Part shown: positions 4,601 to 21,631 of the stretch, one piece after another
Position numbering within the stretch: position 1 is the stretch's first letter
How the letters are laid out: every line of letters starts with the position of its first letter
Source: a virus
IMG/VR virus record: IMGVR_UViG_3300021961_000583
Location: 1-25,237 of that record
Strand: one strand, 5' to 3'
Length of the DNA stretch: 25,237 nt
Program-made: the position numbers and the translations under genes
Notes under the pieces: model-generated
What the model was told of the DNA's origin: nothing
Seen by the model: the letters and a program-made list of their open reading frames with translations, nothing else
The model's database searches: none

Positions 4601-4988
4601 TGCAAATGGTGGTTTATTAGTTAAGGATGCTACTGCTCCTAACACCGTTTCAGGTTCTTTACTTTGGGATTCAACTAATGACTTCTGGAAAGGTGGAGCA
4701 TTAGGTTCAGAAAAAGAATTCGCAAGAATTGATTCTTCTTTATCTTCTAACACCGTTCTAAAAGCTGATGCTAGTGGATTATTGGTAGATACAACCATTA
4801 CTGATGATGGAACTGATGTTTCAATCACAGGTGATTTCACAATCGGTGGTTTAACTGCTAACTCATTCGTAGTTGCTGATGGCTCTAAAACTTTAGTTTC
4901 AATTGCTCCTTCAAACGCTGGTGATTTGATTCAATGGAATGGTTCTTCATTCGTTGCTTCTAACACGGTTGATGGTGGTACATTCTAA
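1632..4988 (+). CDS. Large tail fibre protein with VSGSSQ repeats (1118 aa)
   Basis: The ATG at 1632 follows an AAAAAAAGG tract. The N-terminus (MAQIIKHRRGSLES...AGELLVVTGSAG) matches the short LRRGT...GEL...GDG domain found at the start of many phage fibres (major-tropism-determinant N-terminal type), likely the virion attachment end. The body is Ser/Thr/Gly-rich with eleven (V/I)SG(S/A)(S/A)Q(V/I) motifs and repeated ELFATASDHETRVDALE segments with coiled-coil character. A module around TTTVDSTTIQLGDNIIELNGSG...LLWDSTND occurs twice (about 2830-3000 and 4540-4700). The C-terminus (SFVASNTVDGGTF) has no Peptidase_S74 domain. Codons ending in C (TTC, AAC, ATC) are commoner than in the next fibre gene, as in the sheath and tube genes, hinting at high expression. 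Attachment or receptor binding is inferred. Confidence 0.85.
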   Translation: MAQIIKHRRGSLESISSATKRAGELLVVTGSAGITAANGDSILFVGIDGSTATPANKVLQGSSVPDLTGASYDTSVDGIPFYDSSAEKLYILNKGGNVEVKATANTGGTGIVSGSAQVKELLPSGTVSGSSQVVSILGELNAFSSSQEGKDSTLASYTASVDSDLTELFASASDHETRVDALEAFSSSLDGGFVNNAELAAATGALETTIDNLTTTDIAEGSNLYYTDARVKTKLNAETVISGSSQVDLAEVQGDTDDVAEGSSNLYYTDARVKTKLNAETVISGSSQVQIGSVTGFSSYSSSVAANDVELFATASDHETRIDAVEEAIGAGSNIDGRLTALETFSGSAEDDLTELFATASDHETRVDDLETFQSDIETAISVSGQNVVINGNLEVAGTQTIVDSTTVQIGDNIIELNGSGAANAGLLVKDATAPNTVSGSLLWDSTNDYWKAGAEGAESKLLVAGGDGVVSGSSQISADQTEGWAADVKVQLDANNVVSGSSQISADQTEGWAADVKTQLNSNTVISGSSQVNADSITNFDANVLDKMNAEGVISGSSQVTIGDTTGYSDFSSSIATAISASVAGAQWDNLNGKPAGIVSGSSQVVDYLDSEDVNLGGISGSSLDITGNAKIDGNIVIGGNITIGDASSDTISFGGEIASDILPSPSNTYDLGSATNKFAEVHATDFFGTINGVVNATNGVVSGSSQIVSILGPLNSFTSSINTTIKDKLDAETVVSGAAQIVDLLSNQAVDFGTGRVSADDFGMENGSSTFTGSFVGDGSGLTGLATNLSIVDGKSNSTDIDLLNESLEFLSGSATGIEVTVSNNTVTVSGVNASTSTKGVASFDADDFAVSSGNVAIKSGGVRADNLNSDVAGTGISLNGVDNSIEVDYGSTAGTAVEGDTALTVQGTANEIEISGGSITLGAGGTVTIGLPDDVTIGNDLDVTNDAQVGGDLTVVGNLFVQGTTTTVDSTTIQLGDNIIELNGSGAANGGLLVKDATAPNTVSGSLLWDSTNDFWKGGALGSEKEFARIDSSLSSNTVLKADASGLLVDTTITDDGTDVSITGDFTIGGLTANSFVVADGSKTLVSIAPSNAGDLIQWNGSSFVASNTVDGGTF

Positions 4989-5010
4989 TTAGAGTAACCA
5001 ATAAATTTAA

Positions 5011-5042
5011 AATCCCCTCCCGAAAGGTTGGGGATTTTTTTT
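5011..5042 (+). terminator. Intrinsic terminator after 1118-residue fibre gene
   Basis: AATCCCC (5011-5017) pairs with GGGGATT (5030-5036). An inner CC/GG pair closes a GAAA loop, separated from the outer stem by a 2-by-2 mismatch. A run of eight T (5035-5042) follows. It lies 22 bases after the stop at 4988. Confidence 0.85.
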
Positions 5043-5113
5043 ATACTTTTCGTTTTCTTATACTTATATAAGTGAAGTTATATACAATTCCCAAATAAAT
5101 TATTAAATAAAGA

Positions 5114-5123
5114 TATATTTATA
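5114..5123 (+). promoter_or_regulatory. Candidate late promoter motif TATATTTATA
   Basis: An exact copy of the motif, 26 bases before the ATG at 5150 and downstream of a terminator, so a new transcription unit starting here makes sense. No good ribosome binding site is seen between the motif and the start. Confidence 0.55.
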
Positions 5124-5149
5124 CTAAAAATAAATGGAAATCTAAATAG

Positions 5150-8100
5150 ATGGCTGCAATATTACAATTAAGAAGGGGTACAACTCCGAGTACAACCATA
5201 GCTGAACCATATTTTAATACGAGTTTAGGTACATTACAAGTTGGTGATGGTTCTACCTCAATTACTCTCGTAAAAATAGGTTCAAATACTGGTAATGTTA
5301 CTATTTCAGGAAATCTTACTGCCACTGGCATTTCAACTTTTTCTGCTATCACCGGTTCTAACCTTTACATAACCGAAAATGTAACAATTGATGGAAATAT
5401 CCATATTGGAGGAAACATAACCCTTGGTAGTGGTTCTGATGGTGATATTGTTAATGTAAATGCACCATTGAGCGGTTCAATTATCCCTGCTGAAACAGAA
5501 TTATATGATTTAGGTGCATCTGATAAGAAATATAGAAGTTTATATGTTTTATCTGCTAGTATAGATAATGTTTCATTACCAGGAAGTGGTATTTTATCTT
5601 CATCAAACGAAAACTTTACTAATTTCTCACAATCAGTTGATTCAAGATTAGATGGTGTTGAAGAATCTAACACAAATAGTGATTTTAGATTAAATTCATT
5701 AGAATCATTTACTGGTTCACAAGAAACAAAAAATTCTACACTTGGAACATATACAGGTTCAGTTGATTCTGATTTAACTGAATTATTTTCATCTGCATCT
5801 GACCACGAAACTAGAATTGATGATTTAACTTCAGTTACTGGTTCATATGCAACCACGGGTTCAAATGTTTTCTTTGGAAATCAAGATGTAAATGGTGATG
5901 TATCAATAATTGGTGGAGAATTTAGTGTTATAACCGGAAGTGCACAACTAACAAGTTCTTTGAGTTTCACTCATACTCTCAATGGTCCAAATGATGGATA
6001 TGCAATGTTAGAATTAAGACATGATAATAATGTATATAATGATGATACTGCAATAAGATTAAAAACTGATTTTGCAGGTGCATATTTAGATTATAAAGAA
6101 GATGGTAGTTTATATAATATATTAAGTGTTCAAAGTTTTGCAAGTAAAAACATTTACATTCATAGAGATACTCGATTATTTCAATCAAGTTTAAGAATAG
6201 ATGAAAATCTTACCGTAACTGGTTCTTTAATTGTTGCAACCGATGTATATTCACCTTCATTCTCAGGTTCATTCACTGGTTCGTTTAGTGGTTCACTTGC
6301 AACACAAGATGGTAGATTAGATAGTTTAGAATTAACATCCGAATCACATGATAGTAGACTAAATAGTTTAGAATTAACTTCTGCATCACATGATAATAGA
6401 TTAGATCAGTTAGAAACTGAAACGGGTTCAATTGCTTTAGAACAATCTATCCAAGATGGTAGATTAGATAATTTAGAATTAACTTCCGAATCATACGATA
6501 GTAGATTAGACCAATTAGAAACCGAAACTGGTTCAATTGCATTAGAACAATCTATTCAAGATGGTAGATTAGATAATTTAGAATTAACTTCCGAATCCCA
6601 TGATGGGAGATTGGATTATTTAGAAGGAGAATTTTCAACTTCTTTAGATACACGATTAGATTTACTTGAAAACTTTAGTTCATCTGAATATAACAACGAT
6701 TCTCAATCATTTGATTCTCGTTTAGATTACTTAGAGGGAGATTTTTCAACTTCAGTTGATTCTCGATTAGATAATATTGAAGATTATACTGCATCTTTAA
6801 AACAAGCAATTGATGTAGATGGTCAGAGTTTAATAGTATATGGTGATTTGACTGTACAAGGTACAACAACTACACTTAATACTACCGAATTAGTAATTGA
6901 AGATAAACTATTATCAATCGCATCAGGTTCTACCACTTCTGCAGAGGCAGATGGTGCAGGAATCCACATTTCAGGTGCCGATGCATCTATGTTATGGGAT
7001 GATATTAATTCAAATTTAGTGTTTAACCAAAAAGTATCATCTTCAGTAGGATTTAAAGGTGATGGTTCTGAATTAACTGATGTTTATGCAGTAGGAGTTG
7101 ATTTTGCTGATATAGATAATAAACCAACATTAGTTTCAGGTTCTTCACAAGTAACATCTTCTCTTGATTTTAGATATTTAGAAATACTTGGAGATGATGT
7201 AGTATCGGGTTCATCTCAGATTACAATTACTAACACAACCGGATTCACAACCTTCTCAGGTTCATTGAAAACTACCGATGATGGACAAGATTCTCGTTTA
7301 GATAACTTAGAATCATTCTCATCTTCACAAGAATCGAAAGATTTAACACTTGGTATTTTAACTGCATCGTATGCTGGTAGATTATCAAACTTAGAATCAT
7401 TTACCGGTTCTCAAGAAACAAAAAATTCAACTTTAGCAACCTATACTGGTTCGGTTGACTCACATATTAGTAATTTAGAATCATTTACTTCTTCACAAGA
7501 AGATAAAAACTCAACTTTACAAACATATACTGAATCGGTTGATTCTCAATTAACTGAATTGTATTCAACTGCATCTAATCATGAAGATAGAATTGATATT
7601 TTAGAATCATTCTCTTCATCAATTGATGATACAATCAAAATTAAGTTAGATGTAGAAGGTGTAGTATCATCATCTTCGGATACTTCTACAATTTCTCTTT
7701 CTATACAAAATGGAGTTATTAGTGGAGATGTAATTGGTGGAATAGTTTCAGGTTCTGACCAAGTAACCAGCTCATTGGATTTTAGATATTTAGAAATTAA
7801 TGGTGATGATGTAATTTCGGGTTCATCTCAAGTAACTGAATCTTTAGATTTACGATATGAAGAAATTGCATCTGAAACACATACATTAGTTTCGGGTTCA
7901 TCTCAAGTAACCGAATCATTGGATTCACGATACGAAGTTTCGGGTTCAGTTGCTGATTTAGTAGGTATTCGTTCAACATCAGGTTCTCTTGGTTCAGCTG
8001 CATGGTATAATGTATCTGCTTCAATTTCAGATGGTAACCCTGCTGTTCTTGGAACTGCTGGTGCTGTTAGAGATTATATTGATGAACAACTATTAATCAT

Positions 8101-9340
8101 CGGTGCAGGTGATATTACATCGGTTATTGCTGGTGATGGTATGAGTGGAGGTGCATTATCAGGTTCTGCTACTTTAACACTTGATACTTCATCTGCTCAC
8201 TTTACCGAAGGTGTAGTTGAAGCAATACAACCATTTAGTTCATCAGTTGATACTCGATTAACTGAATTATCAGAAGCAGCAGGTTATATTAACTATGTAA
8301 CAAATAGTATAGAACAATTAACGGGGATAGAAGTGGCAGATTTTGATAATAATGTGGCAGTAACCTTTATAGGTGGAACACTTAAATTTATTTTTGGAAC
8401 ACCCGCGGTACCATCTTCAATTAACACATCATTAAGTGGATTCTTATCTGATAGATTTAATCGAGTAGAAGATGAATATACAATAAATGGTACTTGGAAC
8501 AATGGTGGATACACACTTATAAGTGCATCACTATACGAAGGTACTACTTTATTAGAACAAGTTGGTGTTGGTACATCATTATCACATATAGTAACCACAA
8601 GTGGTTCACATACTTATAAATTGGAATATACCGGAAGTTCTCCATTAGATGGAAGTATTTATACAACATCTACTACGGTGACAGGTACAATATCAAAAAC
8701 AAATCCAGCTTCACCAACATTAACTCCATCTGCAACCATACAATTAGGAGTTAGTTCAAATCAAATAGAACAAGGTGCAACTGGTAGTATATCATTCACC
8801 TCATCTTCAGCTGACCCATCAAATGGTTGGGATTTAATAGATGTAACTACGAATGTGGAATCACCATATTTAATCGAAGGACCTTTAACTGGTTCATCAT
8901 CGATTTCTATAACTGCAACTGCAAATTATGAATCACCAGATGGAGATAATGACCCTAATTTAAATACAAGTTCTACTACAACAAGAACTTATACTAAAAT
9001 TAGAAGTTTAAGATATGGTTCATCTACTATTAGTTCGTTTACTGAAGAAGATTTAGCTAATTTGGCACTATGGGATACATCGTTAGGTGGTTCTGTTGGT
9101 ACAATCGTAAAAGGAACTACAAATCCAAGTGGTCAAACGGTGACAATTACTCATAGTGGAGATGAATTCCATTATATTGTGTACGATAGTTCTCGTTCAA
9201 ACCTAACAGGTATCACAACAAGTGGGTTTGATGTGTTTAACTCGTTTGCAGTAACAACTGTTGGCCAATATAAAATTTATAAATCAACTACGTTACAAGC
9301 AGGTGGTGCAGGAACTAGTTTTACATATACTTTAACATAA
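5150..9340 (+). CDS. Very large tail fibre protein with coiled-coil repeats and Ig-like C-terminal region (1396 aa)
   Basis: The largest gene in the window. The N-terminus (MAAILQLRRGTTPSTTIAEP...LGTLQVGDG) is the fibre N-terminal domain also seen in three neighbouring genes. It is followed by an NGTLTVTG-type beta region (TISGNLTATGISTFSA). Residues about 389-486 are 14- and 21-residue coiled-coil repeats (RLDNLELTSESHDS, RLDQLETETGSIALEQSIQDG), with more SLESFTGSQETKNSTL repeats later. Five VSGSSQ-type motifs occur. The last ~360 residues differ: Ig-like strands (DEYTINGTWNNGGYTLISASLY), a Pro/Thr-rich region and a terminal domain ending YKIYKSTTLQAGGAGTSFTYTLT. There is no S74 domain. The long rod with an Ig-like end suggests receptor or glycan binding at the tip (inference). 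The next gene starts 17 bases after the stop. Confidence 0.85.
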   Translation: MAAILQLRRGTTPSTTIAEPYFNTSLGTLQVGDGSTSITLVKIGSNTGNVTISGNLTATGISTFSAITGSNLYITENVTIDGNIHIGGNITLGSGSDGDIVNVNAPLSGSIIPAETELYDLGASDKKYRSLYVLSASIDNVSLPGSGILSSSNENFTNFSQSVDSRLDGVEESNTNSDFRLNSLESFTGSQETKNSTLGTYTGSVDSDLTELFSSASDHETRIDDLTSVTGSYATTGSNVFFGNQDVNGDVSIIGGEFSVITGSAQLTSSLSFTHTLNGPNDGYAMLELRHDNNVYNDDTAIRLKTDFAGAYLDYKEDGSLYNILSVQSFASKNIYIHRDTRLFQSSLRIDENLTVTGSLIVATDVYSPSFSGSFTGSFSGSLATQDGRLDSLELTSESHDSRLNSLELTSASHDNRLDQLETETGSIALEQSIQDGRLDNLELTSESYDSRLDQLETETGSIALEQSIQDGRLDNLELTSESHDGRLDYLEGEFSTSLDTRLDLLENFSSSEYNNDSQSFDSRLDYLEGDFSTSVDSRLDNIEDYTASLKQAIDVDGQSLIVYGDLTVQGTTTTLNTTELVIEDKLLSIASGSTTSAEADGAGIHISGADASMLWDDINSNLVFNQKVSSSVGFKGDGSELTDVYAVGVDFADIDNKPTLVSGSSQVTSSLDFRYLEILGDDVVSGSSQITITNTTGFTTFSGSLKTTDDGQDSRLDNLESFSSSQESKDLTLGILTASYAGRLSNLESFTGSQETKNSTLATYTGSVDSHISNLESFTSSQEDKNSTLQTYTESVDSQLTELYSTASNHEDRIDILESFSSSIDDTIKIKLDVEGVVSSSSDTSTISLSIQNGVISGDVIGGIVSGSDQVTSSLDFRYLEINGDDVISGSSQVTESLDLRYEEIASETHTLVSGSSQVTESLDSRYEVSGSVADLVGIRSTSGSLGSAAWYNVSASISDGNPAVLGTAGAVRDYIDEQLLIIGAGDITSVIAGDGMSGGALSGSATLTLDTSSAHFTEGVVEAIQPFSSSVDTRLTELSEAAGYINYVTNSIEQLTGIEVADFDNNVAVTFIGGTLKFIFGTPAVPSSINTSLSGFLSDRFNRVEDEYTINGTWNNGGYTLISASLYEGTTLLEQVGVGTSLSHIVTTSGSHTYKLEYTGSSPLDGSIYTTSTTVTGTISKTNPASPTLTPSATIQLGVSSNQIEQGATGSISFTSSSADPSNGWDLIDVTTNVESPYLIEGPLTGSSSISITATANYESPDGDNDPNLNTSSTTTRTYTKIRSLRYGSSTISSFTEEDLANLALWDTSLGGSVGTIVKGTTNPSGQTVTITHSGDEFHYIVYDSSRSNLTGITTSGFDVFNSFAVTTVGQYKIYKSTTLQAGGAGTSFTYTLT
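6314..6607 (+). repeat. Tandem 42/63-base coding repeats (coiled-coil rod)
   Basis: Six consecutive units, each starting with Arg-Leu-(Asp/Asn), of 14, 14, 21, 14, 21 and 14 residues. The 14+21 composite (RLDNLELTSESxDS + RLDQLETETGSIALEQSIQDG) is duplicated nearly exactly at the DNA level. Leu spacing suits a trimeric coiled coil. The 14-residue type is shared with the gene at 9357. Confidence 0.85.
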
Positions 9341-9356
9341 TAATAGAGGATAGAAA

Positions 9357-11444
9357 ATGGCAATTACATTACCAAGTGGTTTTAACATAACAAACAATGA
9401 ACCGGTAGATGCTAGATTTAGTTTAGCTGACCAAACGGCCCGTTATGGCCTATCTTCTGCAAACATATACGAGGGTTTAGTTGTTTATCAACGAGATAAT
9501 AATACATTATGGATATTAGTTGATACAAATGAGGTTTCTAACACAAATGGATGGCAACAAGTAACATCATCGGAGTTATCCGATACAATTACCGATAGAT
9601 TAGATAGTTTAGAATTAACTTCTGCGTCTCATGATGATAGATTAGACCAATTAGAAACAGATTCAGGTTCACAAAGTGGTAGATTAGATAATTTAGAATT
9701 AACTTCTGCATCTCATGATAGTAGATTGGGTAGTTTAGAATTAACTTCTGCATCTCACGATAGTAGATTAGATAATTTAGAATTAACTTCTGCATCTCAT
9801 GATGACAGATTAGATAATATTGAAAGTTTCACATCATCCATAGATACTACAATCAAAACTAAATTAAATGTTGAAGGTGTAATATCGGGTTCAGTTCAAA
9901 TATTAGGTGGAAGTGGTATTTTATCTTCATCAAACGAAAACTTTACTGATTTCTCACAATCAGTTGATAATAGATTAGATTCTGCAGAAAGTGCACTTGC
10001 AAGTGGAAATGATAGATTAACATCATTAGAAGGATTTACTTCTTCAATTGATACTACAATCAAAACTAAATTAAATGTTGAAGGTGTAATTAGTGGTTCA
10101 GACCAATTAACATCTTCATATGATTCTCATTATGTAACATTAGATGGTGACCAAACAATTGGTGGAATAAAAGAATTCAACGATATTGTTGTAAATGGAA
10201 CTGGTTCATTTGCTTATATTGAATCAATTGGTGGTTCTGCTAAAATTATTGGTGACGCGTTTGTTGTAGTAAACACAGCAACACCAACATCAAGATACGC
10301 GGGTTTATCAGTTTATGATTCGGGTTCTACTCTTTCAACTGCATCATTCTACTTTGATGGCCAAAATAACGATTGGGGATATGAATATTCCTCATCTACT
10401 GGTGTTGATTATGCAGTAACCATATTTGGACCTGAATACACAACAAAAGGTAACCCAACTTATTTAACAACGAATACAATACCAAAAGCAGTTGATAATC
10501 ATCATTTAAATGATTCAAATATTTCTGATGATGGTACAACTATCACTCTTGGTTCAAATGTACAATTAAATGGTAATTTAAACCTTACTGGTGGTATAAG
10601 TGGATTAAATATAGTATCGGGTTCATCTCAGATATTAGGTGGAACTGGTATAGTTAGTAGTTCTGCTCAAATAAAACCATTATTACCATCAGGAACTGTA
10701 TCGGGTTCGATACAAGTATCATATCCGAGTTTATCTAATATTCCGGCTGGTATTGTATCGGGTTCATCACAAATAACTCCTTTACTACCAACTGGTGTAG
10801 TATCAGGTTCATCTCAGGTATTCTCAAATGTAAGTGGTGATGTTACTATTAACTCATCAGGTGTATCTGCAATATCAAGTGGAGTAATTGTAAATGCCGA
10901 TGTTAATGCAACCGCGGCTATTGCTTACACTAAATTAAATTTACAAGGTAGTGGAATTATATCAGGTTCTGGTCAAATTACAAAAACTTTACAAGAAGTA
11001 ACAACTGCAGGTAATACAACAAATACTTCAATATCAATTACAAACTTAACTGCATCAACTTCTAAAACAACCGGTGCCTTGATTGTAAGTGGTGGTATTG
11101 GAACAAGTGGTGATGTGTTTGCAGGTGGTGATGTTGTTGCGTATGCATCCTCAGATAAAAGATTAAAAGATAATATTTTACCGATTGAAAATCCTTTACA
11201 AAAAATTAATCAAATTGGTGGTTATAGTTTTGAATGGAATGTGGAAAAACAGAATATTTATAAAGGTAAAGATTACGGAGTTATTGCCCAAGAAATCGAA
11301 GAAATCTTACCTGAATTGGTAGATACGAGAGAAAGTGGATATAAGGCCGTAAAATACGATAAATTGGTTTCCCTATTAATTGAAGGAATCAAAGATTTAT
11401 CACAACAAGTTGAAGAATTAAAACAAAAAATTAACAAGGGATAA
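9357..11444 (+). CDS. Tail fibre protein with C-terminal Peptidase_S74 intramolecular chaperone domain (695 aa)
   Basis: The ATG at 9357 follows AGAGGA (9345-9350). The N-terminus (residues 1-70, MAITLPSGFNITNNEPVDAR...YEGLVVYQRDNNTLWIL) is a different attachment-type domain from its neighbours. Residues 81-150 are five tandem 14-residue coiled-coil units. The middle part has a beta-structured segment (LDGDQTIGGIKEFNDIVVNGTG) and about eight VSGSSQ-like motifs. The C-terminal ~100 residues are a Peptidase_S74 domain: Ser599-Asp-Lys-Arg-Leu-Lys604 fits the Ser/Lys dyad (spacing 5) at which this family cleaves itself before Ser, followed by YGVIAQEIEEILPELV and a terminal coiled coil. In known S74 proteins the domain folds the trimer and is then released. 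The next gene begins 7 bases after the stop. Confidence 0.9.
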   Translation: MAITLPSGFNITNNEPVDARFSLADQTARYGLSSANIYEGLVVYQRDNNTLWILVDTNEVSNTNGWQQVTSSELSDTITDRLDSLELTSASHDDRLDQLETDSGSQSGRLDNLELTSASHDSRLGSLELTSASHDSRLDNLELTSASHDDRLDNIESFTSSIDTTIKTKLNVEGVISGSVQILGGSGILSSSNENFTDFSQSVDNRLDSAESALASGNDRLTSLEGFTSSIDTTIKTKLNVEGVISGSDQLTSSYDSHYVTLDGDQTIGGIKEFNDIVVNGTGSFAYIESIGGSAKIIGDAFVVVNTATPTSRYAGLSVYDSGSTLSTASFYFDGQNNDWGYEYSSSTGVDYAVTIFGPEYTTKGNPTYLTTNTIPKAVDNHHLNDSNISDDGTTITLGSNVQLNGNLNLTGGISGLNIVSGSSQILGGTGIVSSSAQIKPLLPSGTVSGSIQVSYPSLSNIPAGIVSGSSQITPLLPTGVVSGSSQVFSNVSGDVTINSSGVSAISSGVIVNADVNATAAIAYTKLNLQGSGIISGSGQITKTLQEVTTAGNTTNTSISITNLTASTSKTTGALIVSGGIGTSGDVFAGGDVVAYASSDKRLKDNILPIENPLQKINQIGGYSFEWNVEKQNIYKGKDYGVIAQEIEEILPELVDTRESGYKAVKYDKLVSLLIEGIKDLSQQVEELKQKINKG
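9597..9806 (+). repeat. Five tandem 42-bp coding repeats
   Basis: Five in-frame 42-base units start at 9597, 9639, 9681, 9723 and 9765 and encode RLDxLELTSASHDx (the second unit diverges: RLDQLETDSGSQSG). A partial sixth follows at 9807. Near-identity at DNA level suggests recent expansion or slippage. Rod length may vary between relatives. Confidence 0.9.
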
Positions 11445-11450
11445 TACACC

Positions 11451-12095
11451 ATGGCTCAAATTATTAGATTAAAAAGGTCAACATCTTCCGGTACAAAACC
11501 AAGAACACAAGATTTAGAAACAGGTGAAATTGCAATAAACGTATATGATGGTAAGGCATTCACAAGAAAATCAGGTAGTGTTGATGAAGTAGTTGAATTT
11601 GTATCAACAAACACAACCACTGCAATTTCAGGTGATATAAATTTAGATGGTTCAGTAACTGCTTCTTATTTTGTAGGTGATGGTTCTCAAATAACGAACA
11701 TTACAGTTGACCAAGCTGCTACATCTAAAAAAACATTTACAAACCAATCAACTTGGGTAGTAAACCATAATTTAAACACACTAAACCCAATCGCACAAGT
11801 ATATGATTCAAATAATTATCAAATTATACCTGAATCTCTACGAATTACTGATTCAAACACAATCACAATTACTTTCCCAAGACAAGAAACCGGATATGCA
11901 GTAGTTGCAAAAGGTGGACATATTGTTTCAGGTTCAATTTCAGCAGAAAATATTGATGGATTAAGTACTTCTATACTTGATGGTATAAACGCAACTGGTG
12001 CATTTAGTGGTTCTGCTCAAATTAGTTTAAGTGGTGATGTAACTGGTACTGCCGATTCAACCGTTATTTCACAAATTGATGGTGGCGGAATTTAA
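11451..12095 (+). CDS. Small fibre/adaptor protein with fibre N-terminal domain (214 aa)
   Basis: The ATG at 11451 comes 7 bases after the previous stop, with AAGGG (11436-11440) as a likely ribosome binding site. The N-terminus (MAQIIRLKRSTSSGTKPRTQDLETGEIAINVYDGKAFTRK) is the LRRGT/GELAIN fibre domain. Next comes GSVTASYFVGDGSQITNI, then a beta domain (WVVNHNLNTLNPIAQVYDSNNYQIIP...GYAVVAKGGHIVSGS) at about residues 95-165. One SGSAQI motif lies near the end. It is a clear paralogue of the protein at 15765-16616. Its position just before an S74 fibre that lacks this N-terminal domain suggests it could act as the base or adaptor of that fibre (inference). Confidence 0.75.
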   Translation: MAQIIRLKRSTSSGTKPRTQDLETGEIAINVYDGKAFTRKSGSVDEVVEFVSTNTTTAISGDINLDGSVTASYFVGDGSQITNITVDQAATSKKTFTNQSTWVVNHNLNTLNPIAQVYDSNNYQIIPESLRITDSNTITITFPRQETGYAVVAKGGHIVSGSISAENIDGLSTSILDGINATGAFSGSAQISLSGDVTGTADSTVISQIDGGGI

Positions 12096-12111
12096 TTTTA
12101 ATAAAAAAGGA

Positions 12112-12121
12112 TATATTTATA
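12112..12121 (+). promoter_or_regulatory. Candidate late promoter motif TATATTTATA
   Basis: An exact motif copy, 25 bases before the ATG at 12147, with ACGAGGA (12131-12137) as ribosome binding site. No terminator separates it from the upstream gene. Confidence 0.55.
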
Positions 12122-12146
12122 TATTAAAAAACGAGGATAACAAAAG

Positions 12147-15100
12147 ATGATTTTACACAGTCCAATATTTTCAGGTTCAATTAATCAAGCAGAATCTGCA
12201 TATGCAAATTTAAGTGGTTCGTTTACGGGCTCGTTCAAAGGAGTTGGTGATTTTGAAGGTTTAGTAGCAGACTCAATTGACTATGATAACATTTTCAATG
12301 TACCTACTTTAGTTTCAGGTTCATCACAAATATCTTATCCTGAGATATCTAATATCCCAAGTGGTATTATTTCATCATCAGCACAAATAGATACTTTATT
12401 TGATATCGATGGTCTTGTATCAGGTGGTGCACAAGTTGAATTCAATACTATAAACAATAACCCGTTCTCACAAAGTGCAAGTTCGGTAACTGTTTCTAAG
12501 AATATTGTACCAACAACTAATAGTATAACTCTTGGTACTGCACAGAATCCATTCCAAGATTTGTATTTATCCTCTGCATCTCTTTACATTGATGGACAAC
12601 AAGTAATATCATCTAACGCAACTGAATTAATCATTACAACCGATGAAAACCAATCATTAAAATTGATTGAAACCGGTGCTGATACAATTACATTACAAAC
12701 TGCAAATGGTGATATTACCCTTACTACAACCGGAACTGGTAATATTGAATTAGATGCTCCAATACAAATTGCAGCAGGTAATCAAATTATCTCATCCGAT
12801 GGAAATGCAATCCAAATCGGTGAAGATATATCAGTAAGTGGAAATATTGCTGTAACTGGAACCGTAGATGGTGTTGATGTAGCTGCATTAAAGGCTTCCT
12901 TTGATACATTAAATGGTAAATCAGTAATTTCTGGTTCATCACAAGTAACTATTTCTGATACTACGGGATATTCGGATTTTAGTTCTTCATTAAGTGGAAG
13001 AATTTCTACTGAAAAAGGAAGAATAGATGCTATTTTACTCTCTGCAGATGCTGATAAAGATTCATTTGCTGAAATTGTATCATTGATTAACTCTGTTGAT
13101 ACAACTAATGATAATGCATTCGCATCATTCTATACATCCTCAAATAATACAAATACAGCTCAAGATGCAAGATTATCTTCATTAGAAACCGCATCAGGTT
13201 CTGCTATTACACGATTAGATGCATTAGAAGGAACTGATATAACAGTTAGTTTAAGTGGTGATGTTAGTGGTAGTGGTACAATTACTAACTTAGGAGATGT
13301 AACAATCTCAACAACAGTACAACCAAACTCAGTTGCTTTAGGAACTGACACAACTGGTAACTATATGAGTAACGTATCTGCTGGAAACGCAGGTATTTCT
13401 ATATCACATACACAAGGTGAAGGTTCAACTGCAACAATTTCACTTGTTAGTGGTGTTGTTTCAGGTTCATCTCAAGTTAATGCTGATTCAATCACAAACT
13501 TTGATGCAAATGTACTTGCATACAACAACTCTTTAGGTGTAATCTCTGGTTCATCTCAAGTAAATGCCGATTCAATCACTAATTTTGATACAAATGTATT
13601 GGCTTACAACAACTCTTTAGGTGTAATTTCAGGTTCTTCTCAAGTTCTTGGAAATACAGGTATTGTTTCTTCATCTGCACAAATTGATTCATTAGGATTC
13701 TTGAAAGTAGATGGAGATGCTGTAATCTCAGGTTCATCACAAGTTTCTATGGGTGGTGATTTAAGTGGAACTGCTGACAATGCTCAAATAGTAGCTGGAG
13801 CAATTACCAATACTGAAGTTAATGCATCTGCAGCAATTGCATACACTAAATTAAATTTACAAGGTAGTGGTATTGTATCGGGTTCTTCTCAAGTATTCTC
13901 AGATGTGAGTGGAGATGTTGTAATTGCATCAAATGGTGTTGCTACAATCCAAGCTAATTCAGTTGCTTTAGGAACTGATACAACTGGTAACTATGTTGCT
14001 GGTGTAACTGCTGGAAATAGTATCGTAGTATCAGGAACTGCAGGTGAAGGTTGGTCTCCAACAATTACTGTTGGTAATGGAGTTGTTTCAGGTTCATCTC
14101 AAATAGACGCATTAGGATTCTTAAAAGTTGATGGAGATAGTGTAATTTCAGGTTCATCACAAGTATCTCTTTCGGGTGATATAACAGGAACTGCTAACAA
14201 CACTGCAATCGCATCAGGAGTTATTGTAAATGATGATGTTAATGCATCTGCAGCAATCGCTTACACTAAATTAAATTTACAAGGTAGTGGTATTTTATCA
14301 GGTTCAGTACAAGTACAAGCTGGTTCAATTACAGGTGATATTGCATTAGGAACACAAACAAGTGGTAACTATGTTGCAACTCTTGGAACTGGAACAGGTG
14401 TAACTATTGGTTCAAACACAGGAGAAGGTTCAACTCCAACTATCGCAGTTAATTATGGTTCAACTTCAAATACAGCAGTACAAGGTAATACTACTATTGC
14501 ATTTGGTGGTACTGCAAACGAAATTACAATCGATGCTGGTTCTTCAATCACTCTTGGTAGTGGTGGAACGGTAACTATTGGACTTGCAGATTCAATTGGT
14601 GGAAATAGAACTTTCTCAGGAAACGTAACTGTAACAGGTAACTTAACCGTAAATGGTACTACAACAAGTGTAAATTCAAACACAGTAAATATTGGTGACA
14701 ACATTATTGTTCTTAACTCTGATGAGGCTGGTGCTCCATCACAAGATGGTGGTATTAACATCGAAAGAGGTACATCAACTAATGCTGGATTGATTTGGAG
14801 TGAAGCTAACGATTACTGGATGGCAGGACTTGTAGGTTCTGAAGAAAGAATCGTAGTTGGTGCTGGTAATACTTCTATTACTACTTTAGGTACAATCGCA
14901 ACAGGTACTTGGCAAGGTACAGCTATTGCTGATGGATATATTTCATCTGCAGCTGCTTGGAATGCTAAATTAGATTCTGCTGGTACAATCGCTACTAATG
15001 ATTACGCTAAATATGATGCTAGTGGAGATTTAGTTGGTAGAAGTTATACTGAAGTAAAAACTGACCTTTCACTTAATAATGTTGAAAACACTGCATTATC

Positions 15101-15665
15101 AACTTGGGCTGGTTCGGGTAACATTACAACTTTAGGAACAATCGCATCAGGTACTTGGAATGGTTCAGTTATCGCATCTGCTTACTTAGATGCTGATACT
15201 GCTCACCTATCAACTACTCAAACATTTAGTGGAACTAAAACATTCTCTGCTATAACAACTATATCAAATACAACTGCTTCTACAACTAAAACTACTGGAG
15301 CTCTTATAGTTACTGGTGGAGTTGGTGTAAGTGGAGCCCTAAATGTTGGTGGTGACGTTGTTGCTTACGCTTCTTCTGATAAGAGATTAAAAGATAATAT
15401 CAAAAATATCGAAAACCCAATTGAAAAAGTTCAGAAATTGAATGGTGTAACTTGGGATTGGAACTCTAACGCTGATGAATTACAACAATCTTTACCAAAT
15501 GTAGGGGTTATTGCTCAAGAAGTTGAAGAGGTGTTCCCACAATTGGTTCACAATAGAGATAATGGATATAAAGGTGTTGATTACGCTAAATTAACAGGAT
15601 TGTTAATCGAAGCAATCAAAGACCAACAAAAACAAATTGACGAGTTAAAATCCAAATTAGGATAA
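12147..15665 (+). CDS. Large tail fibre protein with C-terminal Peptidase_S74 domain (1172 aa)
   Basis: The start at ATG 12147 is supported by ACGAGGA. It lacks the LRRGT N-terminal domain and starts directly with repeat-type sequence (SGSINQAESAYANLSGSFTG). It has about thirteen (V/I)SGSSQ-like motifs and two 28-residue tandem repeats (13458-13625). SAAIAYTKLNLQGSGI occurs twice here and, with one change, once in the gene at 9357. The module GTANEITIDAGSSITLGSGGTVTIG to GDNIIVLNSDEAG (about 14505-14730) is paralogous to 4365-4590 in the 1118-residue fibre. The C-terminal domain contains Ser1077-Asp-Lys-Arg-Leu-Lys1082, the S74 Ser/Lys dyad, then VGVIAQEVEEVFPQLV and a coiled-coil tail ending DELKSKLG. 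Trimerisation with self-cleavage is expected from the family. A strong terminator follows. Confidence 0.9.
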   Translation: MILHSPIFSGSINQAESAYANLSGSFTGSFKGVGDFEGLVADSIDYDNIFNVPTLVSGSSQISYPEISNIPSGIISSSAQIDTLFDIDGLVSGGAQVEFNTINNNPFSQSASSVTVSKNIVPTTNSITLGTAQNPFQDLYLSSASLYIDGQQVISSNATELIITTDENQSLKLIETGADTITLQTANGDITLTTTGTGNIELDAPIQIAAGNQIISSDGNAIQIGEDISVSGNIAVTGTVDGVDVAALKASFDTLNGKSVISGSSQVTISDTTGYSDFSSSLSGRISTEKGRIDAILLSADADKDSFAEIVSLINSVDTTNDNAFASFYTSSNNTNTAQDARLSSLETASGSAITRLDALEGTDITVSLSGDVSGSGTITNLGDVTISTTVQPNSVALGTDTTGNYMSNVSAGNAGISISHTQGEGSTATISLVSGVVSGSSQVNADSITNFDANVLAYNNSLGVISGSSQVNADSITNFDTNVLAYNNSLGVISGSSQVLGNTGIVSSSAQIDSLGFLKVDGDAVISGSSQVSMGGDLSGTADNAQIVAGAITNTEVNASAAIAYTKLNLQGSGIVSGSSQVFSDVSGDVVIASNGVATIQANSVALGTDTTGNYVAGVTAGNSIVVSGTAGEGWSPTITVGNGVVSGSSQIDALGFLKVDGDSVISGSSQVSLSGDITGTANNTAIASGVIVNDDVNASAAIAYTKLNLQGSGILSGSVQVQAGSITGDIALGTQTSGNYVATLGTGTGVTIGSNTGEGSTPTIAVNYGSTSNTAVQGNTTIAFGGTANEITIDAGSSITLGSGGTVTIGLADSIGGNRTFSGNVTVTGNLTVNGTTTSVNSNTVNIGDNIIVLNSDEAGAPSQDGGINIERGTSTNAGLIWSEANDYWMAGLVGSEERIVVGAGNTSITTLGTIATGTWQGTAIADGYISSAAAWNAKLDSAGTIATNDYAKYDASGDLVGRSYTEVKTDLSLNNVENTALSTWAGSGNITTLGTIASGTWNGSVIASAYLDADTAHLSTTQTFSGTKTFSAITTISNTTASTTKTTGALIVTGGVGVSGALNVGGDVVAYASSDKRLKDNIKNIENPIEKVQKLNGVTWDWNSNADELQQSLPNVGVIAQEVEEVFPQLVHNRDNGYKGVDYAKLTGLLIEAIKDQQKQIDELKSKLG
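13458..13625 (+). repeat. Two tandem 84-bp coding repeats
   Basis: Units 13458-13541 and 13542-13625 encode 28 residues each: (V/I)SGSSQVNADSITNFD followed by (A/T)NVLAYNNSLGV. A third unit begins (ISGSSQV) but diverges at once. The first half also occurs in the 1118-residue fibre at about 3208-3260. Confidence 0.85.
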
Positions 15666-16621: not shown

Positions 16622-17620
16622 ATGGTTTATGATGTATATTACACTACTGGTGGAGGACCTTGGGTAAATGCTGGTACTGATACTTGGGTAAATCTATGGA
16701 TGGAGTTAGTTGTACCTCATTTAGAGGTAAAACCTATACTTTTATTACATAGAAACAAACCAAAAGGACACGAAGATTACCAATTTCCCATAGAAGCACA
16801 TTGGCACGGTGATGATATCGAAAAATTTGAAGAATTATGTAGAAATGCACGAAGAATCAACATTTTACATGGTCATTATACTCCAATGAAGGTAATCGAG
16901 GAGAATAAACATAAAATTCACTCAAATATACTCCATAATTCAGTAGACCATATACTAAAATCACAATTAGGTACTGATGCTTCACTTGCTTGGCACCCAT
17001 ATTTAGATTCTTCTTGGGAAAAACAAGTAAATGAATGGGCAAAACACTCAATTTGGGTAGGATTATATGAAATTCTCATAAAAAATAAAAATTTACCTAA
17101 TTTTTACGAATTTAAACACAATTTACCTCTCTCAAAATCAAATTACCTCGGTTTTGCTTCAAGATGTGAGGGTAGAAAGAATCCACATTATTTAGATGGT
17201 TTAAAATCATTTATTTTTACTGATTCACACGAATTTAACGCAATTTGGAAGGGTGGAGTTAAAATAGATACATCAAAATCACGAATTTATCACTATAATT
17301 CAGAATTTAAAGATAAGTTTTATAATATGGACTGGGGAGTATCACATTCCGCATTTACATCCGAACCATTTGGTTATGGAATCTTTGAAGCAGTGGATAG
17401 AGGTAAGTTACCAATTTTACATAAACTTTACATGAAAGATTTAGAATACCCCTACCGAGTTTCATCTAAAAAGGAGTTTCGTGATATTTATAATAGAATT
17501 TGTAACGAATCATATGAGGTAAAAAATCATTGGTTTAACCACTTAAAACAATATATGGTAGAAAATTATACCAATAAAGAAAAGTGGATACAAGATTTAC
17601 TTTATATTTATAATATGTAG
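16622..17620 (+). CDS. GT-B fold glycosyltransferase, GT4-like (332 aa)
   Basis: The protein resembles group 1 (GT4-like) glycosyltransferases, which move a sugar from a nucleotide-sugar to an acceptor. The best evidence lies in the C-terminal half: E248-P-F-G-Y-G-I-F-E256 fits the EX7E motif that binds the donor, with A257 and a following GKLPILH as in the typical EA...G.PV pattern. R185-K186-N187-P188 after GFASRCEG resembles the conserved R-K-N segment. The N-terminal half starts with a Gly-rich loop (YYTTGGGPWVNAGT) as in GT-B acceptor domains and has HGHYTPM near residue 83. No transmembrane segment is seen. ATG 16622 is 6 bases after the previous stop, without a ribosome binding site, so translational coupling is likely. 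Acceptor unknown: Ser/Thr-rich fibres, host surface glycan or modified DNA are all possible. Confidence 0.8.
   Translation: MVYDVYYTTGGGPWVNAGTDTWVNLWMELVVPHLEVKPILLLHRNKPKGHEDYQFPIEAHWHGDDIEKFEELCRNARRINILHGHYTPMKVIEENKHKIHSNILHNSVDHILKSQLGTDASLAWHPYLDSSWEKQVNEWAKHSIWVGLYEILIKNKNLPNFYEFKHNLPLSKSNYLGFASRCEGRKNPHYLDGLKSFIFTDSHEFNAIWKGGVKIDTSKSRIYHYNSEFKDKFYNMDWGVSHSAFTSEPFGYGIFEAVDRGKLPILHKLYMKDLEYPYRVSSKKEFRDIYNRICNESYEVKNHWFNHLKQYMVENYTNKEKWIQDLLYIYNM
17603..17612 (+). promoter_or_regulatory. Candidate late promoter motif TATATTTATA inside the end of the glycosyltransferase gene
   Basis: An exact copy overlapping the last codons (Tyr-Ile-Tyr) of the preceding gene, 20 bases before ATG 17633. 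It keeps the usual spacing although it must sit in coding sequence, which supports the motif being functional. Confidence 0.5.
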
Positions 17621-17632
17621 GAAAACATAATT

Positions 17633-18880
17633 ATGGCATACTCATTAAACAATTTGGCCGGAGCAACCGGATTTACTCAAGCCTCTAATGTATCTTTAGG
17701 AACTATAAAAGGGTCTCCTGCAGCAAATGATACTATAAGTATTGGTTCATTTGCTTTGACAAGTGTAACTGCTCCAACTGGATATACTTACGCAGTAGAG
17801 GGAACTTCCGAAACTTATACAGCAGGTACTGCGGGTGGTAGTAGAATATCTTATATTGAAAACTATGCTCCAAATTGGACATGGACAGTTCCGGTTGGTT
17901 CTAAAATTACTTTAGGTACGAACTCTGGTAAAAGTGCTACTTTTTCAGTTTCTTCAATGACCAACCTTCCTACACAAACTGCTTTACAATCAATTATTTC
18001 TCATACAATTCGAATGGTATTTGATGATGGATTTAGTGAAAATTGTACCAATAAAGGGTCAAATTTAGATAAAACAGTTTATTCAGTAGATTCATATGAT
18101 GGTAACTCATCAGCACTATGTTTAACGATTGACTCACCGGTTACTTTAGCAGATGGTACAATCGTAGAGGCAGGTGATTTAAATGAAGGAGATACTCTTA
18201 AAGGGTTCTCTATCGGTGGATTAGGAACTGATTCAGATGGAACTTTCTTAGATTGGTCATCTAATTCACTTTCTACTACTCCAAAAGATGTAACAATTGT
18301 TAATTTAACTTATTCTTTTGCTGCTCGTTATTATGATGTAAATAATGGTGAGGTAACTGCTACTTCTGAACACCCTATGTTGGTGAAAGATTCGGTAAGT
18401 GGTGATTACAAATTTAAAGAAATGTTCAACTTAGTAGTTGGGGATAAATTGGTCAAAGGCGATGGTAGTGAAGTTGATATTACTTCAATTGATATTGTAC
18501 AAAAAACAACCGAGATTGTTTCAATAGATGTTGAAGAAGAAGATACTTACATGGTTAATGGATATATTACACACAACAAAGGTGGTAACTCACATTCTAA
18601 TTTCTCAGGACCAAGTGCACCTACATCAGTTGCATACTCATCTCCATTAATTACATGGACTGCACCATCGGCTCAAACTACAACAGGTATAACTGCTTAC
18701 GAATATCAAATTTCAGCTGCATCTAACTTTAGTTCAATTGAAAATACTGCAGATGAATGGAGTACAACTGAAGTTGAGGTAAATACAATTTTAGCTGCAG
18801 GAACTTGGTACTTTAGAGTAAGAGCAATTGAGGCTGGATTAAAAGGAACTTGGTCTTCTACTCTAACATTTACAAGATAA
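17633..18880 (+). CDS. Tail-associated protein with intein-like Hint domain and Fn3-like C-terminus (415 aa)
   Basis: Three parts are visible. Residues 1-162 are a beta-rich phage-type N-terminal region. Residues 163-315 form a Hint (intein/BIL-type) domain: Cys163 starts CLTIDSPVTLADGTIVEAGD with LNEGDTL (block A), T244-S-E-H247 is the TxxH block B motif, and IVSIDVEEEDTYMVNGYITHN ends in His314-Asn315 (blocks F and G). At about 153 residues it is mini-intein size with no room for a homing endonuclease. The next residue is Lys316, not Cys, Ser or Thr, so standard splicing is not expected; self-cleavage or noncanonical splicing is possible. Residues from about 330 (APTSVAYSSPLITWTAPSA...YEYQISAASNF...WYFRVRAIE) look like a fibronectin type III domain. 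A TAGGAAAA ribosome binding site is weak. Cell-surface binding plus processing of a virion protein is inferred. Confidence 0.82.
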   Translation: MAYSLNNLAGATGFTQASNVSLGTIKGSPAANDTISIGSFALTSVTAPTGYTYAVEGTSETYTAGTAGGSRISYIENYAPNWTWTVPVGSKITLGTNSGKSATFSVSSMTNLPTQTALQSIISHTIRMVFDDGFSENCTNKGSNLDKTVYSVDSYDGNSSALCLTIDSPVTLADGTIVEAGDLNEGDTLKGFSIGGLGTDSDGTFLDWSSNSLSTTPKDVTIVNLTYSFAARYYDVNNGEVTATSEHPMLVKDSVSGDYKFKEMFNLVVGDKLVKGDGSEVDITSIDIVQKTTEIVSIDVEEEDTYMVNGYITHNKGGNSHSNFSGPSAPTSVAYSSPLITWTAPSAQTTTGITAYEYQISAASNFSSIENTADEWSTTEVEVNTILAAGTWYFRVRAIEAGLKGTWSSTLTFTR

Positions 18881-19303: not shown

Positions 19304-21631
19304 ATGGCAGAAAAGATTGTATCACCAGGTGTTTTTACAAGAGAAAATGACCTATCATTCTTATCTCAAGGGATTGGTGAAATCGGAGCAGCAATAATTG
19401 GACCTTTCCATAAAGGACCTGCATTCGTACCAACCGTTGTAAACACACAATCAGAATTCGAATCTATCTTCGGTACACCGAATGGAGATTTCTACACGGG
19501 ATATACCGTGCAAAATTATTTAAGAGAGGCTGGAACTGTAACTATCGTTAGAGTTGGTCATGTAGGTGGATATACCCAAGCAGATGCAGTTGGTATCAAG
19601 ATATCGGGTTCAGTTTCAGGTGAAAAACTTGTTGGTGTATTAAAATCTACCCATCATTGGACAACTTCAGGAAACGGAGATGCTATCACTGCTTCTATTG
19701 ATTCACAAGAAGCATCATCTTTATTTGCTATAACATTAGAGAATGGTAACGATGCTTTAAACACTACAATCTCTGCTTCAGTTCTTCACACTGCTGGTAA
19801 TGATTTATCAGATGTATTTGGTGAAAACCCAAGAGGTTCTAAAGGTGTTTATGTATCTCAATTCTTTGAAAATGCTGCAATCGATACATTCAGTTCAGCA
19901 GATGGTGATAAAATTGAATTAGTAGATTTGGGTGAGCAATCATTCGATGGACAAGATTGTACTTTTGCCTCTACTCCTTGGATTAAATCTCAATTAATCT
20001 CTGGCGAAAGACATGATTTATTCCGTTTCCACACTTTAGGTGATGGTACATACGCAAACAAAGAATTTAAAGTATCAATCTTTAATGTAAAAGCAGCAGG
20101 TGAATCAAATGCTACTGATTATTCAACATTCTCAGTTGCAATTAGAGGATTTGCTGATACTGATAGAAAAAAATCAATTTTAGAAACATATAACAATGTT
20201 AACTTAGACCCTGCATCTCCAAATTACATCTTAAAAGTAATTGGTGACCAGGATGTTACTATTGATGCAAATGGAAAACAAACATTAAATGGTGATTATA
20301 GAAATCGTTCTAAATTCGTTAGAGTTGAAGTTTCTGCAGAGGGTGCATTCCCAATCATCGCAGGACCTTTTGGACACGATGCTTACTTATCACCAATCGC
20401 AGGTAACGATAATATCACTCCTGCAGTAGTATTCTCTACAAGTTCAGCTGATAACACTTCATCTTCAACTTATAGATACTCAGGTATTGATTTAGAAACT
20501 GCAGTAGTTAAAGTAGATAATGGACATTTCTTAGCTCCAATTCCAAATGATGCTGAAAATGGTTCAAACGTAGTATTTGCATTTGATTCACAATTCTCAT
20601 ATGAACTTACTGGTTCAAATGCAGCAGATGTTGCAAAGAGACAATTCGTGGTAGGTTTCCAAGGTGGATTTGATGGTGTAACACCAACCGTTTCTCTTGA
20701 TAAAGGAAATGATATATCTGCTGGTAACTCACAAGGATTTAACTTAGCAGGTTCAACTGCAAGTGGTTCAGTTGCTTATGTAAAAGCAATAAACGCAGTA
20801 TCTAACCCTGATGATTTCGATATCAACTTGGTTGCTGCACCTGGTATCATTAGATACAACCACTCTTATGTATTTGATAAGATTGTTGATATGGTAGAAT
20901 CAAGAGAAGATGCATTCTTCATTGGTGATGTAGTTGGACCAACAAATGGTGATTCATCTGCAAAACAACAAATTGCTACCGAACAAGCTCAATCAGTAGA
21001 TTCTAACTATGTTGGTACTTACTATCCATGGGTTAAAACAATCGATTCAAGAACTAACAAATTAACCGTAGTTCCACCATCAGTATTGATGCCAGGAATT
21101 TACGCTGCCAATGATGCTATCGCAGCAGAATGGTTTGCACCGGCTGGTTTGAATAGAGGTGGAATCATCGGAGCAGTAACTGTAACTGATAGATTAACTC
21201 ATGCTGAAAGAGATACTTTATATGAGAACAAAGTAAATCCAATCGCTTCTTTCCCTGGCGAAGGTATCGTTGCATTTGGACAAAAAACTTTACAAGATAA
21301 GGCTTCAGCATTAGATAGAATCAATGTAAGAAGATTGTTGATTAAAGTTAAGAAATACATCGCATCTACTTCAAGATACCTTGTATTCGAACAGAACACA
21401 TCTCAAACAAGAGCTAAGTTCTTGAACACCGTAAACCCTTACTTAGAAGGAATCCAACAAAGACAAGGTTTATATGCGTTTAGAGTGGTAATGGATGAAT
21501 CTAACAATACACCAGATGTAATTGATAGAAACATCATGGCAGGTGCAATTTACTTACAACCTACCAAGACTGCTGAATTCATCGTAATTGATTTCAACAT
21601 CTTACCAACTGGAGCTGCATTTACGGCGTAA
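19304..21631 (+). CDS. Tail sheath protein (T4 gp18-like, 775 aa)
   Basis: Forms the contractile outer tail sheath. The N-terminus is typical (SPGVFTRENDLSFLSQGIGE, then AAIIGPFHKGPAFVPTVV, then EFESIFG). The C-terminal domain is also typical: NKVNPIASFPGEGIVAFGQK, INVRRLLIKVKKYIASTSRY, VFEQNT...NPYLEGIQQRQGLYAFRVVMDE, ending in EFIVIDFNILPTG. These form the conserved core that holds neighbouring sheath subunits together. At 775 residues it is longer than T4 gp18 (659), the extra length lying in the variable middle domains. AAAGGAG (19288-19294) gives a strong start at ATG 19304. Frequent TTC, AAC and ATC codons fit a very abundant protein. The tube gene follows directly, as in T4-like phages. 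Confidence 0.97.
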   Translation: MAEKIVSPGVFTRENDLSFLSQGIGEIGAAIIGPFHKGPAFVPTVVNTQSEFESIFGTPNGDFYTGYTVQNYLREAGTVTIVRVGHVGGYTQADAVGIKISGSVSGEKLVGVLKSTHHWTTSGNGDAITASIDSQEASSLFAITLENGNDALNTTISASVLHTAGNDLSDVFGENPRGSKGVYVSQFFENAAIDTFSSADGDKIELVDLGEQSFDGQDCTFASTPWIKSQLISGERHDLFRFHTLGDGTYANKEFKVSIFNVKAAGESNATDYSTFSVAIRGFADTDRKKSILETYNNVNLDPASPNYILKVIGDQDVTIDANGKQTLNGDYRNRSKFVRVEVSAEGAFPIIAGPFGHDAYLSPIAGNDNITPAVVFSTSSADNTSSSTYRYSGIDLETAVVKVDNGHFLAPIPNDAENGSNVVFAFDSQFSYELTGSNAADVAKRQFVVGFQGGFDGVTPTVSLDKGNDISAGNSQGFNLAGSTASGSVAYVKAINAVSNPDDFDINLVAAPGIIRYNHSYVFDKIVDMVESREDAFFIGDVVGPTNGDSSAKQQIATEQAQSVDSNYVGTYYPWVKTIDSRTNKLTVVPPSVLMPGIYAANDAIAAEWFAPAGLNRGGIIGAVTVTDRLTHAERDTLYENKVNPIASFPGEGIVAFGQKTLQDKASALDRINVRRLLIKVKKYIASTSRYLVFEQNTSQTRAKFLNTVNPYLEGIQQRQGLYAFRVVMDESNNTPDVIDRNIMAGAIYLQPTKTAEFIVIDFNILPTGAAFTA

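Follow-up and report, generated by a model that had tools for sequence, protein, structure and literature searches.

The virus record IMGVR_UViG_3300021961_000583 (25,237 bases, all of which were analyzed and which we call the window) encodes, among its tail genes, a 415-residue protein that carries a Hint domain. We favor the reading that this domain, fixed in its tail-associated protein, is a self-processing module that resembles type A bacterial intein-like (BIL) domains. It probably cleaves the protein after Asn315 and so releases a piece made of Lys-Gly-Gly and fn3, the N-terminal thioester being either hydrolyzed or captured by an amine. An intact-looking Hint, an invariant Lys at the +1 position and an adjacent glycosyltransferase gene point to programmed self-processing and not to a parasitic intein. 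The invariance of the Lys and the glycosyltransferase gene go beyond an earlier, preliminary description of this DNA. To our knowledge, few biological roles have been established for BIL domains; here, a large environmental phage family keeps one intact, with Lys at +1 and the glycosyltransferase gene in every relative examined.

In this contractile-tailed phage the Hint gene is flanked by tail-fibre-like genes and a tail sheath gene; the sheath gene downstream places the locus in the tail module, in line with the tail-gene neighborhood described earlier. The features at the locus are as follows.

16622–17620, + strand: gene for a GT-B-like glycosyltransferase, next to the Hint gene on its upstream side (AF2 model, fold match, adjacency)
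17633–18880, + strand: 415-aa protein with N domain, Hint and fn3 domain (ORF list, Pfam, AF2 model)
17633–18118, + strand: N-terminal part, residues 1–162, in the N-extein position (AF2 model)
18086–18118, + strand: N junction VDSYDGNSSAL, residues 152–162 (AF2 model, conservation counts)
18119–18577, + strand: Hint domain, Cys163 to Asn315 (profiles and predicted fold)
18119–18121, + strand: Cys163 (TGT), putative nucleophile for an N-S acyl shift (63/63 relatives)
18362–18373, + strand: block B, T244-S-E-H247 (His in 63/63 relatives, Thr in 62/63, one Ser)
18572–18577, + strand: His314-Asn315, putative Asn cyclization (63/63 each)
18578–18586, + strand: +1 Lys316 (AAA, 18578–18580) with Gly317-Gly318 (Lys 63/63, Gly317 62/63, Gly318 56/63)
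18596–18877, + strand: fn3-like domain, residues 322–415 (Pfam fn3, E 0.0016, below cut-off; 6tpv, Z 12.6, 1.9 Å, 89 residues)
19304–21631, + strand: tail sheath gene downstream of the Hint gene (phrog_23, E 1.2e-71)

The preliminary description had singled out 18119–18580, the span from Cys163 through Lys316. In the translation, Cys163, T244-x-x-H247, His314-Asn315 and the +1 Lys of HNKGG all lie where it had placed them, and the fn3-like part that it had seen behind the Hint is recovered by both fold and Pfam. Masses were calculated as 16.8 kDa for the N part, 16.5 kDa for the Hint, 10.7 kDa for the C part and 43.9 kDa for the full-length protein, close to the fragments of ~17 and ~10 kDa that had been predicted. 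A C-terminal cut would give 33.28 and 10.68 kDa, an N-terminal cut 16.79 and 27.16 kDa, and splicing 27.45 and 16.51 kDa. For the N-terminal part (residues 1–162) no convincing match was found among PDB sequences (best E 0.18).

On the window, the Hint profile matched this ORF and no other. The profile search with Hint and intein models that had been proposed as a check gave matches to NCBIfam intein_Nterm (starting at residue 163, E 4.3e-4, 21.2 bits) and to Pfam PT-HINT (PF07591; residues 237–321, E 1.8e-5, 25.5 bits), both below their cut-offs of 24.5 and 27.7 bits. PHROG 38766, a ‘virion structural protein’, matched residues 159–316 (E 1.9e-9). A profile built from 37 family sequences, that of the window among them, had BIL2 (E 4e-6) and then the Clostridium thermocellum BIL (E 5e-5) as its top matches in PDB sequences.

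The protein was then modeled with AF2 from an alignment of 60 family sequences with the window first. The model had a mean pLDDT of 87 and a pTM of 0.47, so that its individual domains can be used and their relative arrangement cannot. Residues 158–320 were predicted to form the Hint horseshoe, in keeping with the complete domain described earlier, and compared best with BIL2 (6y75; Z 19.8, 1.8 Å, 141 residues) and the C. thermocellum BIL (2lwy; Z 18.2, 1.6 Å, 132 residues). DnaB inteins, at Z 18.0 and below, were tied with 2lwy, being within 1 Z of it, so the fold cannot separate a BIL from an intein; the Hedgehog Hint reached 16.7. Model confidence was low before Cys163 (pLDDT <50 at residues 155–161). 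Taking profiles and model together, we judge the predicted Hint to be more than a chance similarity.

The domain has the features of a type A BIL: a Hint fold (in the model), an N-terminal Cys, block B TxxH, a terminal His-Asn and a +1 residue that is not Cys, Ser or Thr. The same set is found in the C. thermocellum BIL 2lwy, which we take to be type A. BILs led both the fold and the profile searches. The A-type BIL-like features named in the preliminary description are supported. Unlike the C. thermocellum BIL, the window Hint lies in a tail-gene cluster, is linked to a glycosyltransferase and is constant, as is its +1 Lys, in the relatives examined. Type A BILs are placed in hypervariable regions of non-conserved proteins in a passage of PMC7765530; in the window family the flanking domains are variable and exchanged between relatives, and the junctions are well conserved.

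Relatives were gathered by scanning viral contigs, with 169 found for the Hint part (best 80 kept) and 174 and 177 for the N part (best 80 of each). The Hint-part scan and the scan giving 174 relatives used VDSYDGN as search word, and the main count set was taken from the loci found with the N-domain word alone (best 80 of 177 relatives). It holds 63 distinct ORFs spanning the N domain to the junction, one of 64 (L321, cut) having been dropped. Cys163, His247, His314, Asn315 and Lys316 were present in all 63, and Thr244 in 62 (one Ser); Lys316 is as conserved as the catalytic residues. A wider count gave Lys at +1 in 131/131, a figure that includes loci preselected by HNKGG, which are uninformative on Lys. 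Pairwise identity of the Hint went down to 40% in the wider set (83 of 87 proteins, those of >400 aa). A codon alignment of 87 sequences (the window plus 86; L135, cut at a contig end, left out) showed synonymous variation at His247 (CAC 61, CAT 26), Asn315 (AAT 50, AAC 37) and Lys316 (AAA 80, AAG 7), as well as at His314, with the Cys163 codon nearly fixed (TGT 86, TGC 1).

These counts bear on whether the Hint could be a mini-intein now without its former +1 nucleophile and on the way to becoming inactive. Its length of 153 residues, the lack of Cys, Ser or Thr at +1 and the lack of an endonuclease family among the Pfam matches would suit such a history, but catalytic residues kept in 63/63, most of them with synonymous codon variation, an equally conserved Lys and no empty alleles among the relatives examined make it highly improbable. 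It is also very unlikely that the tail protein stays uncut and that its Hint is chiefly a folded spacer. The junctions have low confidence in the model, as linkers would, and yet are well conserved, and a spacer would have no need of an invariant Cys, TxxH and His-Asn.

Conservation was then assessed along the protein. At the N junction D153, Y155, D156, N158 and L162 were found in 63/63 ORFs, G157 in 60/63 and V152 in 59/63. The mean frequency of the commonest residue in this set was 0.85 over residues 141–162 and 0.845 over 316–323; the means of the N domain, the Hint and the fn3 part were 0.66, 0.70 and 0.63, respectively. Window 152–159 was the best conserved 8-mer in the word-selected set and ranked 9th of 408 in the recounted set, where 151–158 and 149–156 came top and 316–323 was 41st. 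An artefact of the search word was rejected as the source of the YDGN conservation, since the five invariant residues stay at 63/63 in the set from the N-domain word. Judged by these alignments, both conserved junctions would suit processed sites.

No Hint-less allele was found among the 63 distinct N domains from the N-domain-selected loci (best 80 of 177 relatives), nor among 127 distinct N-domain sequences over all loci (best 80 of 174 and of 177), the Hint being in the same ORF. The Hint in this family thus looks fixed rather than mobile, with a rare Hint-less allele possible beyond the best 80, and the view of the preliminary description that it is an insertion lacking in related phages was not borne out. 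A canonical (class 1) intein is expected to have Cys, Ser or Thr at +1 and a sporadic presence; here Lys was found in 63/63, and 0/63 and 0/127 N domains in the best-80 lists were without a Hint. A mobile intein was rejected on the same two grounds, the wrong +1 residue and the lack of Hint-less alleles among the relatives examined. Domain exchange between relatives is visible. Proteins L075 and L127 are 84% identical over the N domain but only 48% over the Hint and 35% over the fn3 part, and identity falls off close to the N/Hint boundary. The variants suggested in the preliminary description are seen in the genes, as exchanged domains, and not as a product of Hint chemistry.

The +1 residue was also compared with that of other Hints. 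The pretoxin HINT (PF07591) of polymorphic toxins resembles the window domain in its weak profile match and His-Asn end; it differs in that the window score is below the curated cut-off, that fn3 and not a toxin lies downstream, and that +1 varies among PF07591 matches. A polymorphic toxin was rejected on the fn3 (Z 12.6) and the score (25.5 vs 27.7 bits). As background, 294 genomes were searched with PF07591, of which 55 matched; at one locus per best genome (L368 left out), HN was found in 27/30 loci. Lys was at +1 in 4/27 (L397 has Lys) and Cys or Thr in 6/27, so Lys is no general rule of Hints. Twelve bacterial relatives of the Hint, in 10 loci from Planctomycetes and Nevskiales MAGs, had Asp (9), Gln (2) or Tyr (1) at +1. 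These (L353–L362) sit in Gly/Ser-rich proteins, in L355 and L356 as two neighboring genes.

In the mechanism that we propose, Cys163 together with His247 of block B would form an N-terminal thioester, and His314 with Asn315 would cut the chain after Asn315, giving a free Lys-Gly-Gly-fn3 piece of 100 residues. The usual branched (thio)ester needs a Cys, Ser or Thr side chain; with Lys at +1 it cannot form, and cleavage should dominate. The N domain would be released as a thioester and either hydrolyzed or transferred to an amine. Cys163 and block B would be dispensable if there were only C-terminal cleavage, and their conservation indicates selection on the N-terminal step as well. Processing would probably mature the 415-aa protein during tail assembly, on its way to a presumed place in the virion, and the neighboring glycosyltransferase perhaps modifies one of the pieces. 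Small proteins of this kind pose no special difficulty in expression, which opens a direct way to test whether such domains serve programmed cleavage or amine ligation.

Splicing through Lys316 is the main rival to cleavage after Asn315. After Asn cyclization the alpha-amine of Lys316 would attack the Cys163 thioester, which would excise the Hint and fuse its two flanks as ...YDGNSSAL-KGGNS..., N domain to fn3. This follows the mechanism proposed for type A BILs in a passage of PMC4031507 (thioester at the N end, Asn cyclization at the C end, attack of the freed amine on the thioester), and here neither splice step looks impaired and the two junctions are conserved. However, the same source passage states that type A BILs can splice but that cleavage products dominate, and a passage of another review describes them as unable to ligate their flanks (PMC7765530). 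If splicing were the sole outcome, direct Hint-less fusions would be expected, and none was found in the 127 distinct N-domain sequences of the best-80 lists. We therefore regard atypical splicing as rather unlikely. Ligation via the Lys316 alpha-amine would give the calculated tryptic peptide TVYSVDSYDGNSSALK (1704.78 Da), and thioester hydrolysis TVYSVDSYDGNSSAL (1576.69 Da).

A further reading has the Hint act as a conjugation enzyme, transferring the N domain from its Cys163 thioester, without ATP, to the alpha- or epsilon-amine of Lys316, to a lysine of another tail subunit or to an acceptor on the host surface, with the glycosyltransferase modifying the product. For BIL2 of the Tetrahymena BUBL1 locus (6y75, 6tmm), the best match of the window Hint by both fold and PDB sequence profile, a passage of PMC8616854 reports isopeptide bond formation at the epsilon-amine of a lysine. 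BIL2 differs in belonging to a ciliate and in its ubiquitin-like flanks, its lysine being described there as in the ubiquitin-like domain ubl5. We consider conjugation unlikely for the window protein; if true, part of the virion would be assembled covalently and without ATP, in a way comparable to the lysine isopeptide bonding reported for BIL2.

For the preferred reading, cleavage after Asn315, a parallel is offered by a J-like tail protein of ~1160 residues, found in three near-identical copies (L197, L206, L223), in which a 58-residue leader is followed by a Hint and then HN-KGGWNP. Hint-less homologs in the cultured Pelagibacter phages HTVC202P, HTVC111P, HTVC026P and HTVC112P have their N terminus at the Lys-Gly-Gly or close to it, reading MGG in three and MGIG in one. 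A shared SLFLSW block is reached 28 residues after the Asn, and 29 residues from the start in HTVC111P and 32 in HTVC202P. A cut at Asn/Lys in the J-like protein would give a nearly native N terminus. By analogy, this comparison favors C-terminal cleavage as the step that an HNKGG Hint performs, and it suggests that Hints define where a tail protein begins in more than one phage lineage. The C-terminal release envisaged in the preliminary description is supported to this extent; the J-like case is an analogy only, because its Hint is distant (about 30 bits with the family profile), the three proteins are near-identical and two of the four homologs (HTVC026P, HTVC112P) have N-terminal indels.

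In HTVC111P, HTVC026P and HTVC112P the gene before the J-like gene belongs by annotation to the toxin-activating lysine-acyltransferase / RTX toxin acyltransferase family, whereas in HTVC202P and L197 a minor-tail-L-like gene lies directly before it instead. The acyltransferase-annotated genes are:

L364, 1043–1450: gene before the J-like gene (annotation)
L365, 1019–1432: gene before the J-like gene (annotation)
L366, 1082–1468: gene before the J-like gene (annotation)

The gene directly upstream of the Hint gene (16622–17620) was modeled with AF2 at a pLDDT of 85 and a pTM of 0.84. Its predicted fold is a GT-B double Rossmann-like one, closest to 6kih (Z 19.8, 315 residues, 3.9 Å), with HepE, TarM and BshA close behind. 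No Pfam family was found for the window member, and 50 members of the family gave only five weak matches to tyr_de_CO2_C (best E 0.0029) and one to RgpF (E 0.0072). E-x7-E is the nucleotide-sugar motif of GT-B glycosyltransferases, and the window protein carries EPFGYGIFE; its first Glu is invariant in 49 aligned members and the second is Gln in some (L002).

Of the distinct Hint sequences whose upstream flank reached at least 1 kb, 93/93 had this glycosyltransferase directly before them; where the downstream flank reached at least 2 kb, the sheath gene was present in 128/128 distinct cases. Reciprocally, the Hint gene lay next to 57/57 distinct glycosyltransferase ORFs (the 80 nearest of at least 590 relatives). 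The linkage comes mostly from one phage lineage with a conserved gene order. Searched against 50,697 phage records, the glycosyltransferase matched only LR756508, a 484-kb phage, where it adjoins a Hint ORF in the opposite order. That Hint has the Cys, SASQ at block B and HNKH at its end. With the LR756508 glycosyltransferase as query, no relatives were found in the viral contigs. The phages Mel-JY01 and immuto, close relatives by sheath, were absent from the phage records matching the Hint protein or the glycosyltransferase. No glycosyltransferase match was found among the 50,697 records for the NCTB and Erwinia phages, which carry Hints in tail or virion proteins, so the pairing of Hint and glycosyltransferase is not general.

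Annotations of Hint domains in phage tail and virion proteins exist already. A Hint related to that of the window by sequence or fold occurs in NCTB gp136 (‘putative phage tail protein, contains intein domain’), a virion structural protein of Erwinia Alexandravirus, phrog_38766 and, from uncultured Caudovirales in BFVD, ‘Hint’ and ‘Fibronectin type III’ proteins, and these too are tail or virion proteins. Two of them, NCTB gp136 and the Erwinia protein, differ in having a collagen-like N part, 7 and 10 residues after the Asn, and Ala and Thr at +1, respectively. Directly after gp136, whose Hint ends HNAVMVAKK, NCTB gp135 (L158:5480–5941) is a small separate Hint-like ORF ending HNKVD. In the literature, as covered by titles, beginnings of abstracts and passages of mostly non-subscription papers, no case of a Hint or BIL in a phage tail protein was found; the phage Hints in those passages lie in a terminase, a reductase, a helicase or a gene without a named tail role. 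The invariant Lys, the constant Hint presence, the glycosyltransferase linkage and the J-like comparison were not found in any listing examined.

Elsewhere in the window, two tail-fibre-like ORFs (9357–11444 and 12147–15665) have a C-terminal Peptidase_S74 domain (chaperone of endosialidase), the matched domain opening with the motif SDKRLKDNI in both. With the Hint ORF, the window thus holds three tail-region proteins with potential self-processing domains. The tail-fibre ORFs at 1632–15665 are rich in short repeats, such as SGSSQ(V/I) and DSRLDxLE, and the reverse-strand ORFs lying within them may be by-products of these repeats.
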